Shown here piece by piece: positions 2,688-8,970 of a stretch of DNA of 64,000 bases. The notes beneath the pieces are model-generated. The model searched no databases. It was given only the letters and a program-made list of their open reading frames with translations, and had not been told where the DNA came from. Source of the stretch: an uncultured Clostridia bacterium (GTDB taxonomy: Bacteria; Bacillota; Clostridia; Christensenellales; Borkfalkiaceae); NCBI GenBank assembly GCA_944346885.1, contig CALVMR010000001.1, forward strand, positions 1 through 64,000. Reading direction: 5' to 3'. A program made the position numbers and the translations under genes. Positions within the stretch are counted from its first letter, which is position 1. Each line of letters starts with the position of its first letter.

Positions 2688-3117
2688 GGTTTCCTCCTCC
2701 GCCGCGGTGCGGCAAGCGTTCTTTTTCCGCAATTATAGCGCAGAAGCCGCAAAAAGTCAAACATTTGTTCGTATTTTTACGGAAAGAAAAGAGGAAATTT
2801 ATACCGCTTTCCGCTGTTTTTTGCAGCGGCGCTCCGCTTTGCCGCATATGCTTGCTGTTTTTTTTGTGGGGGAGTTCTGCGCGCGCCCGTTGTTTTTTTG
2901 CGGGGGAGCACTTTTTGCATGCGCTCGCTTTGCGGCGTGCATATATGCCGTTTTGTGTGCGTATGCGGAAAAATATATGAAAATTTCACTTGCTTTTCAT
3001 ATTGTTATGGTCGTATAATAATACTGCGCCTGTATAATGGTATGGAAATCGGCGCCATGCCGTTTTCCGCGCTTTGGCGGCAAAGCGCGGCGAGGGCGCG
3101 CCGCAAGGAGAATGCGA
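2688..3117. other. 430-bp divergent intergenic region
   Basis: This separates the minus-strand radical SAM operon from the plus-strand two-component operon. It holds the two-component promoter near its right end. The remainder is T-rich with short G/C hairpins and no convincing gene. Confidence 0.6.
2990..3019 (+). promoter_or_regulatory. Sigma-A-type promoter of the two-component operon
   Basis: TTGCTT (2990-2995), an 18-nt spacer and TATAAT (3014-3019). A second TATAAT lies at 3033-3038. The mRNA would have a leader of about 90 nt. Confidence 0.6.
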
Positions 3118-3783
3118 ATGAAAGTTCTGATCGTGGACGATGAAAAGATGATCCGTGACGTGCTGCGCGAGTACGTCGAGTTTGAAGGGAACGAGGCGTA
3201 CGAAGCGGAGGACGGGTTGCAGGCGGTGCGCATGTGCAAAGAGGGAGATTACGATATCATCCTGATGGACGTGATGATGCCGGGGCTGGACGGGTTTTCC
3301 GCCGTAAAGGAGATCCGCAAGACCAAGGATATCCCCGTCATCATGCTCTCGGCGCGCGGGGAAGAATACGACAAGCTGTTCGGGTTTGAAGTGGGCGCCG
3401 ACGACTATGTGACCAAGCCGTTTTCTCCCAAAGAGGTGATGGCGCGCATTGCCGCCGTCACAAAGCGGCACCGTGCGGGCGCGGCAAGGCGCGAAACGTA
3501 TAAGTTCGAGGGCTTGGAGATCGACATGAAGGGGCGCAACGTGTACGTGGACGGCGAAAAGCTGGAACTTACGCCCAAAGAATACGAATTGCTCTTTTAT
3601 CTCGTGCGCAACAACGGCATCGCGCTTTCGCGCGAAAAGCTCTTATCCGATGTGTGGGGCTTTGATTTTTACGGCGACGACCGTACCGTGGATACGCACA
3701 TCAAGATGCTTCGAAGCAGCTTGGGCGAGTATCGGAAATTTATCGTAACACTGCGCGGGATGGGGTATAAATTCGAAGCATGA
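3118..3783 (+). CDS. OmpR/PhoB-family response regulator
   Basis: 221 residues. A receiver domain (about 1-115) has the acidic pair D7-D8, the phosphoacceptor D51 in LMDVMMPG, the conserved Thr/Ser in MLSARG and the switch lysine in VTKPF. A winged-helix DNA-binding domain (about 128-221) carries LTPKEYELL and the RGMGYKFE end. The ATG at 3118 is chosen because AAGGAG (3105-3110) sits 7 nt upstream, whereas the ATG at 3112 is too close and earlier starts add a non-homologous Arg-rich stretch. The last bases overlap the kinase start (ATGA). It is activated by the downstream kinase. The regulon cannot be told from the sequence. Confidence 0.95.
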   Translation: MKVLIVDDEKMIRDVLREYVEFEGNEAYEAEDGLQAVRMCKEGDYDIILMDVMMPGLDGFSAVKEIRKTKDIPVIMLSARGEEYDKLFGFEVGADDYVTKPFSPKEVMARIAAVTKRHRAGAARRETYKFEGLEIDMKGRNVYVDGEKLELTPKEYELLFYLVRNNGIALSREKLLSDVWGFDFYGDDRTVDTHIKMLRSSLGEYRKFIVTLRGMGYKFEA

Positions 3784-5285
3784 GCAAGTGGAATGCAAAG
3801 CGTTTTCACAGCATCAATTTCATTTTGTGGGTGTACTTCCTTGTCTTTGCCGTCTTTATCCTGCTGCTTACCTGGGTGTTCCAAATGGCGCTCTTGCGCG
3901 CGTTTTACCGCAGCGAAGCGGAAAAGGATCTTACCTCCATCGGAAAACAGGTGAGCGAGCGCATGACGGGGCTCATGCTGCTGGAATCCGTTGCCGATTC
4001 TCTGGGCGAAGAAAAAGATCGGATCGTCGCGGAGATCAACGGCTACATCGAACAGATGCAAAACGAGCATCCGGAGATCAAGATCTTTGTTTTTGACGGT
4101 GCGGGCGGGCTGCTCTATCCCGTGTTCGAAGGGGAAGAGAGCGGCGGGTTTGCCGAAGGGGTGCCGGACAATACGACCTTTCTCGGCATGCTCGACATCG
4201 GCAAGGAGCAGGGGAAAGACGTTGTAAGCGTTCGGCTGGACGACGATTATTACGCCTATGCGGCGCGGGTAGACGGCGCCGCGCCCGGAAATGCCGCGGC
4301 AAGCGACGCGCGGTATGTGTACATCAGTTACTCCATGCTGCTTGCCAACAGCGCATTCGGCACCATGCAGTGGGAGCTGATCTTGGTTTCGGTCATCGTC
4401 ATTTTCGTGGCGCTATTTATTTCCGCGCTGCTCTCTTCGCGGTTGACCAAACCCATCCAGCGCATCACGCAGGCGGCGCAGCGCATGGCAAAGGGGGATT
4501 TTACCGTCAATTTCAAGGGCGAATATTCCTATGCGGAGATGGACGCCCTTGCCGAAACGCTGGACTACGCAAAGGAGGAGATCGGCAAGTCGGATGAGTT
4601 GCAGCGCGAGGTGCTGGCAAACGTCACGCACGATCTCAAAACGCCGCTTACGATGATCAAGGCGTATGCCTCCATGATCCAGGAGATCAGCGGCGCCGAC
4701 CCTGCCAAGCGTGAAAAGCACACGCAGGTCATCATCGACGAAACGGACAGGCTTACGGCGCTCATCAACGACGTGCTGAACCTCTCCAAGATCCGTTCGG
4801 GCATGGATACGCTCAAAGTGCGCGAGTTCGACCTCTCCGAGGTGGTGGAAACGGTGTTGGAGCGCTTCGGGTATTTGACCGAAACGCAGGGGTACGTCAT
4901 CGAGCGTGACGTGGCGCGCGGGCTGTGCACGAAGGCGGACATCGAAAAGATCGAACAAGTAGTGTACAACCTCGTCGGCAACGCCGTCAGCTATACGGGA
5001 GACGACAAAAAGATCGCCGTTGCGCTGCGGGAGGAGGAGGGGCGGATCCGCCTTGCCGTGACCGATACGGGCAAGGGCATCGCGCCCGAAGAGCGCGAAA
5101 CCATTTGGGACCGCTACACCCGCTCTACCGATACGCACAAACGCCCCGTCAAGGGCACGGGGTTGGGGCTCTCCATCGTAAAAACCATTCTCGTCAAGCA
5201 CAAATTCGATTTCGGCGTTGAGAGCGAGGTGGGGCACGGAAGCACGTTTTATGTGCTCTTTCCGCTTTCGGGAAGGGCGGGATAA
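3780..5285 (+). CDS. Sensor histidine kinase
   Basis: 501 residues, coupled to the response regulator by a 4-bp overlap. Domains in order: TM1 about 13-35; an extracellular sensor region about 40-198 with no recognised fold beyond a likely Cache/PAS-like segment; TM2 about 199-218; HAMP about 219-270; HisKA with the phosphorylated His at about 284 (NVTHDLKTPL); HATPase_c with the N box (NLVGNAVSYTG), DTGKGI and GTGLGLSIV. All catalytic boxes are intact. The signal is unknown. A strong terminator follows. Confidence 0.95.
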   Translation: MSKWNAKRFHSINFILWVYFLVFAVFILLLTWVFQMALLRAFYRSEAEKDLTSIGKQVSERMTGLMLLESVADSLGEEKDRIVAEINGYIEQMQNEHPEIKIFVFDGAGGLLYPVFEGEESGGFAEGVPDNTTFLGMLDIGKEQGKDVVSVRLDDDYYAYAARVDGAAPGNAAASDARYVYISYSMLLANSAFGTMQWELILVSVIVIFVALFISALLSSRLTKPIQRITQAAQRMAKGDFTVNFKGEYSYAEMDALAETLDYAKEEIGKSDELQREVLANVTHDLKTPLTMIKAYASMIQEISGADPAKREKHTQVIIDETDRLTALINDVLNLSKIRSGMDTLKVREFDLSEVVETVLERFGYLTETQGYVIERDVARGLCTKADIEKIEQVVYNLVGNAVSYTGDDKKIAVALREEEGRIRLAVTDTGKGIAPEERETIWDRYTRSTDTHKRPVKGTGLGLSIVKTILVKHKFDFGVESEVGHGSTFYVLFPLSGRAG

Positions 5286-5303
5286 ATTTTTTTACGGCAG
5301 GCG

Positions 5304-5339
5304 CCGCGGTGTTTTTGCAAAAGCACCGCGGTTTTTTTT
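5304..5339 (+). terminator. Rho-independent terminator after the two-component operon
   Basis: Stem CCGCGGTG / CACCGCGG (5304-5311 with 5324-5331) with a TTTTTGCAAAAG interior, followed by eight T residues. Confidence 0.85.
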
Positions 5340-5464
5340 GCGTTTTTCGGAAAAATGGTGTATGCTGCTTATGTGCGGCGGAAGATTTTTGCGGCAGGAT
5401 AAAAAAACAACAAAAAATTTCAACAAAACGGCGGAGAGAAACGTTTATTAAACGAGGGAACGGG

Positions 5465-5974
5465 ATGGATGCAAAAGAGCTGGATGCGCTCCTCGCACGC
5501 GTGGCGGAGGGGGATAACGGCGCGTTCGGAAAATTTTATGAAGCGACGGCGAAGGGCGTTTTTTCGTTTGCGTATTCGTATTTGGGCAACCGCGAGGACG
5601 CGGAGGACGTGATGCAGAACGCCTATCTCGCGGTCAAACGCAGGGCGTACACCTATAAAAAGGGAACGAACGCGCGCGCGTGGCTGTTGCAGATCGTCAA
5701 AAATTTGGCGATCGACGAACTGCGCAAACGCAGGCGGCGGGGAGAGCTGAACGAAAACATGCCCGCGCCGCCCGCGGCAGACGGCGCGGCGCTCTCGTAT
5801 CTGCTCGCCTGTTTGAGCGAGACCGAGCGCGAGATCGTTGTTTTGCATGTGTATTGGGGGTACAAACACCGCGAGATCGCAAAATTTTTGGGGATGCCCG
5901 CGGGCACGGTCAGTTGGAAGTACGCCGCCGCGCTCAAAAAGCTGGAAAAATTCGGAAAGGAGGAAGAGGCATGA
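5465..5974 (+). CDS. ECF-type RNA polymerase sigma factor
   Basis: 169 residues starting at MDAKELD. Region 2 is visible at about 25-90 (GNREDAEDVMQNAYL, then ARAWLLQIVKNLAIDELRKR) and region 4 at about 112-160 (LSETEREIVVLHVYWGYKHREIAKFLG). The two-domain layout without regions 1 and 3 marks an ECF sigma. The stop overlaps the next ORF (ATGA), which encodes a membrane protein with an RsgI-like outer domain. That protein is therefore the likely anti-sigma factor. The promoter recognised and the trigger are unknown. The ribosome binding site is weak (GAGGGAACGGG). Confidence 0.9.
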   Translation: MDAKELDALLARVAEGDNGAFGKFYEATAKGVFSFAYSYLGNREDAEDVMQNAYLAVKRRAYTYKKGTNARAWLLQIVKNLAIDELRKRRRRGELNENMPAPPAADGAALSYLLACLSETEREIVVLHVYWGYKHREIAKFLGMPAGTVSWKYAAALKKLEKFGKEEEA

Positions 5975-7332
5975 GCCGAAAAGATTTTTTTGAAAAATTG
6001 AACGACGAGCTGGATGCGATCACGCCGCCTCTTTCCGCGGCGCTGCAAGCCGAACCCATCGCTTCCGCGCCCTGCCCGGAAACGGCGCCCGAACCCGAAG
6101 CGGCATTCGTTTCCGTGTCTGCTGGCGGGCATACGGGCGGCTCTTTTAGAAAGACGCGCCTTCCCGCGCTGCTGTTGGCGGGGGTACTCTTTTTCGTGCT
6201 GCTGGCGGGAGTGCTGCTTTTGGCGCTTCCCCGCGGCGGCGTTTCCCTGCTTTCTTTGGATATCAATCCCTCCGTGCAGCTGGTGCTCGGCGCAAGCGGG
6301 CGGGTCGAGGCGGTCGTCAGCGGCAACGCGGACGGGGATACGGTGCTGCTCAGCGAGGAGGGGTTTGCCTCGTCGCTGGTCGGAATGCGCGCCGAAGAAG
6401 CCGCCGTTGCCCTGACCGACCGCGCCGCGCAGACGGGATATTTAGACGTGTTTAACGAAGGGAGCGCCAAGGAGTACAACGAAGTTACGCTTTTGCTCAC
6501 GGGCGGAAACGCTTCAAAGGAGCGCGCGGAGGAGATCGCCGCCGCCGTCACGGCGCACAGCCGCAGCGAGGGCGTCTACCTCTATGTTTCCGCGGGCGCG
6601 GTGCGCGAGGACGCCGCCTCCGAGGCTGCGTCGCTTACCGAAGATGCGGCGCTGTATTATGCGCGCATCCATGAGGCGGAAACGCTTGCCGCGTACGCCG
6701 AATCTTCCGCCTATGCCTATGCGGAAACGCTGCTGGCGGACGCGTTGAAAAAATACGACCTGTTCTGCGGGATCCAAACGCTGAACGAGCAGCTCGCGGA
6801 AGCCTGCGGCGAAACGTTGGGCGCGTTTCCCGATACGGCGAGCTATTGGTATTGGCGGGAGCGGGAGGATGCTTCGGAACAAATTTCGGCGCTGTGCGAA
6901 GAGGCGGCGCGCGCGCTGGCGGAGATGCGGCTGCGCTTCGGGCAGGAATGGGATTCGTACTTTTCCTTCCAAGTGGCGTATACCGCGTACATGTTCGCGG
7001 CGTCGGCGGTATCGGAAGAAGACGTTGCCGAGCTGCGCGGCTTGCTCGAAGAGGGGATCGGAAGGGAAAATTTCGGCGGGGCGGAAAACTTTTCCGTGCG
7101 CCTCAAATATTACAATTTTGTGGGGAGCGACCTGCTGCAAACGGTGTTTTCCGCGTTGTTCGGCGGCGGCACGGGCACGACGGAAGAATTGTTTTCCGTG
7201 CTCTCTTCGCTCATTGCGAGCGAGGCGCAGGCGCTGTATTTGCGCTATTCCGCGCTCTTTTCCCTGCCGCGCGCGGCGATCGGGGATGAGCAGTACGCCG
7301 CCTTTTTGGCGCGCATCGGAAAAGCGGGCTAA
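5971..7332 (+). CDS. Membrane RsgI-like protein, likely anti-sigma factor
   Basis: 453 residues, with ATG 5971 overlapping the sigma stop and AAAGGAGG just upstream. Residues 1-63 form a short cytoplasmic segment with no zinc anti-sigma (HxxxCxxC) motif. A single TM helix is at about 64-87. Immediately outside lies SLLSLDINPSVQLVL (about 93-107), the signature of the RsgI periplasmic domain, which in clostridial RsgI proteins self-cleaves between Asn and Pro (here N99-P100). The remaining 340 residues are Ala/Glu-rich and look helical, without a recognised carbohydrate-binding module. Known: RsgI normally controls SigI. Inferred: here the same outer domain controls an ECF sigma. Confidence 0.75.
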   Translation: MSRKDFFEKLNDELDAITPPLSAALQAEPIASAPCPETAPEPEAAFVSVSAGGHTGGSFRKTRLPALLLAGVLFFVLLAGVLLLALPRGGVSLLSLDINPSVQLVLGASGRVEAVVSGNADGDTVLLSEEGFASSLVGMRAEEAAVALTDRAAQTGYLDVFNEGSAKEYNEVTLLLTGGNASKERAEEIAAAVTAHSRSEGVYLYVSAGAVREDAASEAASLTEDAALYYARIHEAETLAAYAESSAYAYAETLLADALKKYDLFCGIQTLNEQLAEACGETLGAFPDTASYWYWREREDASEQISALCEEAARALAEMRLRFGQEWDSYFSFQVAYTAYMFAASAVSEEDVAELRGLLEEGIGRENFGGAENFSVRLKYYNFVGSDLLQTVFSALFGGGTGTTEELFSVLSSLIASEAQALYLRYSALFSLPRAAIGDEQYAAFLARIGKAG

Positions 7333-7337
7333 ATTAT

Positions 7338-7400
7338 GCCCACCGCTCGGCAGGGCGCGGCAAACAGAGCCCGCCGCTCGGCAGGGCGCGGCAAAGCAGG
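7338..7400 (+). repeat. Tandem duplication, period about 31 bp
   Basis: CCGCTCGGCAGGGCGCGGCAAA occurs twice, once just after the anti-sigma stop and again about 30 bp on. It lies in the 165-bp gap before the lipoprotein gene and encodes nothing obvious. Confidence 0.7.
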
Positions 7401-7497
7401 TTAAAAAAAGAAAAATTTTTCCAAGAAAAAGGGCAGTTGCTTCGTTTATAGAGTGAAAAACATCCCGAACGGGAGAAAATAAGGGAGGTAGCGGAAT

Positions 7498-8970
7498 ATG
7501 AAACGGAGAACGGGAAGGATCGCGGCAGGTTGCCTTGCGGCAGTGATGGCGGGCGCGCTGGGCGTTGCCGCGCTTGCGGGGTGCGCCCCGCAGGATGAGG
7601 CGGTTTCGTATGTGCAGGTGGACGTGAATCCGTCCGTCGCCCTTTCGTTGGATGCGGGCGGCAGCGTTCTTTCCGTGTATGCGGAAAACGAGGATGCGCA
7701 GGTGCTGTTGTACGGGGAAGACCTCGTGGGCATGGATGCGGAGCAGGCGCTTGAAAAAATCGCCGAGCTCTCCGTAGAACTGGGATATCTCGACCGGGCA
7801 AACTGCGGGGTCGATGTGCTCGTGGAGGGCAGGGCAGACGAGGCGGAGATCACCGCGTTCGCGCAGGCGGCTTTTACGGCGGCGGCAGAACCGGAGGGGA
7901 TCGCCGTGCAGTTTACTTCGGAAGGGACGTTCACGCTCAACCGCGAACGCCTTGCCGCCAATGCGGCGTACGGGCTCGATTTGGGCGCGGCGCAGTTCAG
8001 CCTCATCCTCTCGGCGCAGGCGGCGGATCGCTCTTTAACGATCGAAGCGGCTGCCGAAATGGATACCGAAGAGCTGATCGCCATCGTCAACGAGGCGGCA
8101 AAACAGATAGAGCCGTACGCAACGGCGGCGTACGGGGCGGCGGTGCGCATTGCGCAAAACGTGTACGAAACGGGGAAAAACAGCCTGCTGGTCACGCCCT
8201 ATCTGCTGCCCTATGCGAATTTTCTCCGTTATCCCGTCAACAACGGAATGATCTACAATTTGTACGTCAATGCATACGGCGCGCTGGATACGGCGCTGAT
8301 CGCCGCGGAAGAGGCGGAAGCGCTGGCGCAGAGCATGTCCGTTCCGCAGCCGCTGCGCGACGCCGTTGCGGACGCGCTGCAAATGAGCGCGGAGGAAGAG
8401 GCGGCGTTTGCGGAAGCCGCCGTCACCTTTGCGGAGATGAACGACTGGTTGGACGGTTACATTAAGAACAAAACGGCGGAAGAACGTGCGGCTCTGCGCG
8501 CGCAGATCGAAGCCGCAATGGAGGAAGTGCAGGCGTTTGCCGATACGGTGGAGGCGGGCGTTTCCGAAGAGTACAAGGAGGCGTTCGGGCAGTTCTGCGC
8601 GGATATCGAGAACATCATACCCGTCGGCGCCGAAACGGCGATCAAGGGGTATGTGGAAGAGTTTGAAGGGCTTGCAGAGGATCTGACGGCGGCGCTTTCC
8701 GCGGCAAAAGAACCGAAGGCGGCGCTGTATGCGGCGCGGAACACCTTTAAAGACCGCGCGGATCAAACGTTGGAAACCATCCGCGACGAACTGAGCGCGG
8801 CGGACCGCAAGGTCGTCGATGCCGCCGTCGATGCGCTGGATGAAGGGTTTACGGCTTTGGAAAACACCTTCCGCGGCGCGGTGGAGGAGGCGGAACAGGC
8901 GGCGCGAGAAGCCCTTGCCGCGCTGCGCGCCGCGCGCGAAGAAGCGCAGGGCGACGTGCAGGAAGGATAA
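7498..8970 (+). CDS. Lipoprotein with an RsgI-like Asn-Pro domain
   Basis: 490 residues. A signal peptide with lipobox LAGC predicts lipidation at Cys29. Fifteen residues later is VQVDVNPSVALSLDAGG, the same SxDxNPS-type sequence as in the membrane protein upstream (N44-P45 here). It also shares the pattern of a long Ala/Glu-rich helical region, so the two are likely paralogues. It has no TM helix and no cytoplasmic part, so it cannot hold a sigma factor directly. GGGAGG at about 7482-7487 supports the start. It may be a regulon member, a decoy or a cell-surface structural protein. The function is unknown. Confidence 0.75.
   Translation: MKRRTGRIAAGCLAAVMAGALGVAALAGCAPQDEAVSYVQVDVNPSVALSLDAGGSVLSVYAENEDAQVLLYGEDLVGMDAEQALEKIAELSVELGYLDRANCGVDVLVEGRADEAEITAFAQAAFTAAAEPEGIAVQFTSEGTFTLNRERLAANAAYGLDLGAAQFSLILSAQAADRSLTIEAAAEMDTEELIAIVNEAAKQIEPYATAAYGAAVRIAQNVYETGKNSLLVTPYLLPYANFLRYPVNNGMIYNLYVNAYGALDTALIAAEEAEALAQSMSVPQPLRDAVADALQMSAEEEAAFAEAAVTFAEMNDWLDGYIKNKTAEERAALRAQIEAAMEEVQAFADTVEAGVSEEYKEAFGQFCADIENIIPVGAETAIKGYVEEFEGLAEDLTAALSAAKEPKAALYAARNTFKDRADQTLETIRDELSAADRKVVDAAVDALDEGFTALENTFRGAVEEAEQAAREALAALRAAREEAQGDVQEG

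Follow-up and report, generated by a model that had tools for sequence, protein, structure and literature searches.

A predicted ECF sigma factor system with a lipid-anchored SEAL paralogue of its candidate anti-sigma factor in an uncultured Clostridia bacterium

Introduction

Why would a bacterium encode, beside a sigma factor and a candidate membrane anti-sigma factor, a lipoprotein that carries the same sensor domain outside the cell and has no part inside it? This question is raised by three genes at positions 5465-8970 of a 64,000-nucleotide stretch, hereafter the window, which comes from an uncultured Clostridia bacterium of the family Borkfalkiaceae (GCA_944346885.1, contig CALVMR010000001.1). 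The genes encode an extracytoplasmic function (ECF) sigma factor, a membrane protein and a predicted lipoprotein (Table 1). On balance we think it probable that they form an ECF sigma factor switch with a SEAL-type anti-sigma factor, in which the chief output is the lipid-anchored SEAL paralogue, feeding back outside the cell. Negative feedback by the lipoprotein, through load sharing or as a decoy, taken alone comes near an even chance without reaching it.

The SEAL domains and their Asn-Pro site

The family RsgI_M (PF23750) matches both exported proteins above its cut-off, the membrane protein with E=3.7e-10 and the lipoprotein with E=1.3e-18. In the membrane protein this SEAL/RsgI_M domain (residues 90-213) lies between a transmembrane helix (65-85), after which the outer face opens with SLDINPSV, and a helical C-terminal part (216-453). 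In the lipoprotein the domain (36-142) follows Cys29 of the lipobox LAGC and precedes a long helical C-terminal part; VDVNPSV, with Asn44-Pro45, lies 15 residues past the Cys that would be lipidated. Both motifs had been pointed out in an initial annotation of the window, together with the overlap of the sigma and membrane protein genes (4 bases, as measured here) and a lipid-anchored paralogue that has the same domain and no cytoplasmic part. All of these were found as it described, and its coordinates were correct wherever they were checked.

Profiles built from 32 lipoproteins and 31 membrane proteins match the solved periplasmic domains of RsgI1, RsgI2, RsgI6 and RsgI9. In the PDB the lipoprotein profile matches 8hep_B (1.8e-18) and also 8her, 8heq, 8hdj and 8u9o, and the membrane protein profile matches 8her_B (2.2e-8); the alignments start at residue 1 of the deposited B chains, which is the Pro after the cut Asn. 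The AlphaFold models, with predicted local distance difference test (pLDDT) values of 88.9 for the lipoprotein and 85.4 for the membrane protein, have a beta-turn-beta element around Asn-Pro (37-42/46-51 and 92-97/101-106, respectively). RsgI structures rank first for both models in Foldseek, and in VIA the top five or six rows are RsgI throughout. Against B. subtilis RsgI (8t9n), VIA gives Z 11.3 for the lipoprotein (102 residues, 2.6 Å) and Z 10.7 for the membrane protein (106 residues, 2.2 Å). The models thus bear out the RsgI-like fold that the initial annotation had supposed, and, judged by profile and model, the outer domain of each protein is the central (SEAL) domain of RsgI with its cleavage motif.

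Asn-Pro is found in all 109 membrane-type and all 88 lipoprotein-type domains that align over the site, the two classes being set by a script with a few misassignments, so the motif is not a matter of chance. Both proteins would be expected to cut themselves at this bond. Another explanation is that the SEAL domains are structural relics, in which Asn-Pro is kept for the fold, no self-cleavage takes place and an ordinary site-1 protease activates the system. The membrane anti-sigma factors of genus g146, which lost both Asn-Pro and the start of the SEAL domain (L112, L115 and L117; L235 by eye), would fit such relics. So would RsgI8 of C. thermocellum, in which the motif is missing and self-cleavage does not occur, and which ClpXP degrades all the same, and the B. 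subtilis site, which is not strictly needed (PMC12203970). We nevertheless consider this explanation improbable: Asn-Pro is the most conserved feature of both protein sets while the flanking residues vary, and it is precisely this bond that is cut in the relatives of solved structure.

The sigma factor and the cytoplasmic side of the membrane protein

The sigma factor matches Sigma70_r2 (E=1.2e-16) and Sigma70_r4_2 (E=2.5e-10) in Pfam, and TIGR02937 above its cut-off (1.2e-23). Its length and its two regions are those of ECF (group 4) sigma factors (regions 2 and 4 only, ~170-200 residues). Among its best 25 NCBIfam matches there is no SigI model, and the top models are ECF. The initial annotation was therefore right that an ECF sigma factor stands here in place of SigI, but this coupling alone is not special, since lipoprotein-free pairs of an ECF sigma factor and an RsgI_M membrane protein are common in the order and anti-sigma factors of similar shape are also found elsewhere in the class. 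The ECF and SEAL pairing was ruled out as a novelty for the commonness of such pairs, and for the same reason it is the lipoprotein loop that is the unusual part of the system. One further RsgI_M membrane protein (L047:7167-10151) is 994 residues long, has a large outer part and follows an ECF sigma factor of 160 residues.

The membrane protein begins with a helix (3-17) that has the conserved pattern ELD..(T)P.LS......PI and is likely the part that binds the sigma factor. Residues 1-63 contain a single Cys and no HxxxCxxC zinc motif, and a Pfam search up to E=10 found neither a zinc-finger anti-sigma domain nor a carbohydrate-binding module in either exported protein; both absences had been noted before. 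The RsgI_N domain (PF12791) is absent from the whole genome and from both proteins.

Conservation of the gene set and origin of the lipoprotein

Searching the order with the profiles from this work gave 45 linked triples, 37 arranged sigma-membrane-lipoprotein and 8 lipoprotein-sigma-membrane. The three genes are conserved together, as their reading as one system in the initial annotation demanded. In the genus the RsgI_M domain occurs in 7 of 40 genomes, always as exactly two adjacent copies, and an ECF gene stands beside the pair in the window, L031-L033, L035 and L036 (L034 ends at a contig edge). In the family 74 of the 201 sampled genomes have RsgI_M matches. The set can also be found in public genomes from gut metagenomes, such as those of Candidatus Scatosoma pullistercoris and an uncultured Christensenellaceae bacterium (L210, L219). 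Outside the order, the long lipoprotein matched 27 of 291 class genomes at E<=1e-12, one of them the window's own; the others match over the SEAL part only, and the 11 loci that were read resemble transmembrane anti-sigma factors.

The lipoprotein has the signal peptide, lipobox and invariant Cys of a bacterial lipoprotein, the lipidation itself being predicted. Alignment with the membrane protein in hhalign confines their likeness to the SEAL domain (probability 99.7, 121 columns). In a tree of the domain the lipoprotein and membrane types stand mostly apart, with 11 label changes versus 48 when labels are shuffled, in a tree with weak supports, a short domain and a few tips mislabelled by script. 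A chance neighbour or a recent tandem duplicate was rejected as the origin of the lipoprotein, as the set is conserved, the types separate in the tree and only the SEAL domain is common to both. At another locus (L037:5491-8264) classical SigI and RsgI genes are directly followed by an RsgI_M lipoprotein, the domain of which clusters in the tree with that of the RsgI next to it; from this association and grouping, recruitment of the lipoprotein seems to have happened more than once.

The sharing of one beta-strand and loop module by both proteins, with a cut site that is invariant in the lipoprotein, also allows for a positive co-sensor. Its ectodomain would bind the stimulus, destabilise the anti-sigma SEAL domain or exchange strands with it, and be needed for activation; where the anti-sigma factor has no Asn-Pro, as in g146, the trigger could come from a separate partner that is cleaved. 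We give this role a low probability. Pairs that do without a lipoprotein are presumably functional, and a target made after activation would be a poor trigger unless its basal expression suffices.

Putative twin promoters of the sigma factor and lipoprotein genes

Is the lipoprotein then a product of the sigma factor that it accompanies? By reading the sequence 5' of sigma genes we found a block, CAAYAAAA-N13/14-YGTTTAAT. In the clade with the order sigma-membrane-lipoprotein it lies at the same place 5' of 25 of 31 sigma genes (0.025 expected from dinucleotide shuffles), and the exact consensus lies 5' of 28 of 35 genes labelled as lipoprotein (0.075 in shuffles); it precedes none of the 31 membrane genes. 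Several of the genes missed by these counts carry a variant common to both genes or to congeners, such as GTTGAA in L109, which replaces the consensus 5' of both genes. The lipoprotein site in the window has a single departure, G for Y (CAAG), and this is common to the congener L034. Both blocks are fixed while the spacer varies, and therefore the two sites are not copies of one DNA segment. The two-block form would fit the paired -35 and -10 elements of an autoregulatory promoter, a trait of ECF (group 4) sigma factors.

The pairing is also seen away from the linked operon. In G510 the lipoprotein gene at C8:34335 has the block and its ECF operon lies at C26:28237, and in L212 and L220 the block precedes lipoprotein genes with no ECF gene nearby. 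In L146 and L147, ~0.7 and 3 kb lie between the sigma-membrane pair and the lipoprotein gene, and both carry the same promoter block. In a sister clade both genes are preceded by another block, TGCRATAAA..TTAT (9 sites in 5 loci; none in shuffles), and in the lipoprotein-first arrangement the operon is headed by a third one, CCAAC..TTGTnTATA, 5' of the lipoprotein gene, in 6 of 9 loci. Both promoters thus change alike across clades, as expected if one sigma factor reads both. From these sequence patterns, the sigma factor most likely acts on the lipoprotein gene, and the two promoters in the window would be used by the sigma factor encoded there.

In the genome of the window the exact pattern CAAYAAA-N14..17-GTTTA has one site, 5421-5449, and a relaxed pattern has five, two of which are the promoter sites in the window. 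A wider regulon was considered and rejected: across the 201 family genomes the exact motif occurs outside the operon and lipoprotein sites ~80 times versus ~60 in the reversed control, counted by hand, and most of the extra exact sites inspected in relatives are 5' of no gene. With few other convincing sites, the lipoprotein looks like the main dedicated target of the sigma factor.

The initial annotation had suggested that the lipoprotein could compete with the membrane sensor or feed it; the promoter evidence favours a feedback or an output role. An output need not be a regulator, and the lipoprotein could be an effector, that is, a surface or wall-spanning helical protein which uses its SEAL domain for shedding or as a weak link and leaves the anti-sigma factor unaffected. 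Such a role would suit the lipoprotein as the sigma factor's main recognisable target beyond the operon, with its long, helical C-terminal part and with orphan copies that have no ECF pair nearby. The lipoproteins of g146 (L112, L115 and L117) also speak for it, having retained Asn-Pro although the anti-sigma factor of the same operon lost it. We regard the effector as a serious possibility, though a doubtful one. The domain is common to the lipoprotein and its own regulator and the two are mostly linked, which suggests a functional relation, and the independent association with a SigI-RsgI pair (L037) likewise argues against an effector alone.

Layout of the locus

The coordinates are collected in Table 1. 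The gap between the membrane protein gene and the lipoprotein gene is 165 bases long. A hairpin separates the sigma operon from the upstream two-component genes, a response regulator and a histidine kinase (3037-5285), which lie directly 5' of it. In the congener L036, open reading frames like this pair in size and order are also found 5' of the sigma gene.

Table 1. Features of the three-gene locus, in positions of the window.
Feature	Position	Strand	Details
Intrinsic-terminator-like hairpin, 3' of the upstream histidine kinase gene	5303-5339	+	13-pair stem, then a T run
Putative sigma-dependent autoregulatory promoter	5421-5449	+	CAACAAAA-N13-CGTTTATT, 15 bases 5' of the sigma ATG
ECF sigma factor gene	5465-5974	+	169 residues, sigma regions 2 and 4 (Pfam, TIGR02937)
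Candidate membrane anti-sigma factor gene	5971-7332	+	453 residues, one predicted transmembrane helix
Predicted self-cleavage site of the anti-sigma candidate (Asn99-Pro100 codons)	6265-6270	+	RsgI PDB chains start at the aligned Pro
Putative second copy of the sigma promoter, 5' of the lipoprotein gene	7422-7449	+	CAAGAAAA-N13-CGTTTATA
Lipoprotein gene	7498-8970	+	490 residues, signal peptide with lipobox LAGC
Cys29 codon, predicted lipid attachment site	7582-7584	+	Same Cys in all 32 aligned lipoproteins
Predicted self-cleavage site of the lipoprotein (Asn44-Pro45 codons)	7627-7632	+	Asn and Pro invariant in 32 aligned lipoproteins; kept in 45/45 linked triples

Proposed mechanism

At rest, the short cytoplasmic helix of the anti-sigma factor would hold the sigma factor, and the SEAL domain outside the membrane would already have cut itself at Asn99-Pro100, its two pieces staying associated. 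A stimulus would then pull the outer piece away, a site-2 protease would cut the transmembrane helix, and degradation in the cytoplasm would set the sigma factor free. We propose this sequence of self-cut, separation, site-2 proteolysis and degradation by analogy with RsgI, for which the order of activation steps has been described (PMC12203970). Candidate site-2 proteases (M50) are present in the genome. The free sigma factor would transcribe its own operon and, from the second promoter copy, the lipoprotein gene.

The lipoprotein would cut itself in the same manner, and the stub from the lipidated Cys29 to Asn44 would then hold the ectodomain only through a beta-strand. Since the sensor module is common to both proteins and the lipoprotein has no means of signalling inward, its most likely part is to share the stimulus of the sensor or absorb it, or else it may replace lost surface molecules of its own kind. 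Either sharing or replacement would close a homeostatic negative-feedback loop. The Streptomyces lipoprotein CseA, which dampens an ECF system from outside the cytoplasm, is a precedent (PMC6767563). We infer the binding of the sigma factor by the membrane protein, the proteolysis and the sign of the feedback.

Several observations weigh against a feedback switch of this kind. The anti-sigma factors of g146 indicate that self-cleavage of the anti-sigma factor is not universal, and 33 of the 40 genomes of the genus have no RsgI_M domain. Beyond the SEAL domain the membrane protein and the lipoprotein have nothing in common, and their helical C-terminal parts gave only middling helical-bundle matches in Foldseek and VIA, none of them clear. 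Orphan lipoproteins exist with no ECF gene nearby (L158-L162, L165), and three of them (L161, L162 and L165) have no consensus promoter motif upstream, so some would work without the sigma factor. The regulon was searched by exact consensus patterns, which diverged targets would escape.

If the regulon consists essentially of the sigma factor, the anti-sigma factor and a copy of the sensor domain that is anchored by lipid, a more specific idea can be put forward. Sensor and output would form a closed circuit of two fuses with the same SEAL domain, self-cut and held together non-covalently, coupled by the exchange of beta-strands, by which the cell would measure and restore the number or the load of breakable tethers on its surface. 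We think this rather unlikely.

The self-cleavage of SEAL domains has so far been studied in RsgI anti-sigma factors, where it is unclear what separates the halves. The circuits described here pair a sensor with a second SEAL protein that has no inward signal and is preceded by a copy of its promoter, and in one genus the cut site is missing from the anti-sigma factor alone. They can serve as a natural test of the SEAL domain as a force or ligand fuse, of strand exchange, and of the use of a sigma factor whose apparent targets are very few. The promoter signature together with the gene set offers a means to find such systems in uncultured gut Clostridia.

Comparison with known systems

In the sigmaE-RseA-RseB system of E. 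coli, as here, an ECF sigma factor and a transmembrane anti-sigma factor are joined by a third, extracytoplasmic partner, which restrains activation, and site-2 proteolysis takes part. RseB is a soluble periplasmic protein that is not paralogous to the ectodomain of RseA, and the site-1 cut of RseA is made by DegS and not by self-cleavage.

By membership the system is not a SigI-RsgI system, having neither SigI nor RsgI_N, although judged by its sequence the outer half would work like one. As in the SigI-RsgI systems of B. subtilis and Clostridium thermocellum, an anti-sigma factor with one transmembrane helix carries an outer SEAL/RsgI_M domain with Asn-Pro and the same fold, its gene adjoins that of the sigma factor, and a promoter, putative here, lies 5' of the sigma gene. 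It differs in its ECF sigma factor with region 4 in place of SigI, in the short cytoplasmic helix in place of RsgI_N, and in the added lipid-anchored SEAL paralogue with its own promoter copy. Many clostridial RsgI proteins have a C-terminal carbohydrate-binding or glycosidase module; a Pfam search up to E=10 found no such module here, and the helical C-terminal parts gave no clear fold match. RsgI9 of C. thermocellum is, like the lipoprotein, a SEAL protein without a cognate SigI gene (PMC12203970), but it keeps the transmembrane and cytoplasmic domains that the lipoprotein lacks.

The sigE-cseABC operon of Streptomyces coelicolor likewise joins an ECF sigma factor with an extracytoplasmic lipoprotein, CseA, the loss of which raises sigE promoter activity (PMC6767563). 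CseA acts with a two-component system and not with an anti-sigma factor, sigE is not autoregulated, and a common SEAL domain is not reported for CseA. Neither a SEAL lipoprotein nor the twin-promoter arrangement appeared in the literature searched, the main SEAL papers lying outside its coverage, where a prior mention is possible. What is new here is that the same sigma-type promoter stands 5' of both the sigma factor and the lipoprotein genes, including lipoproteins that are unlinked.

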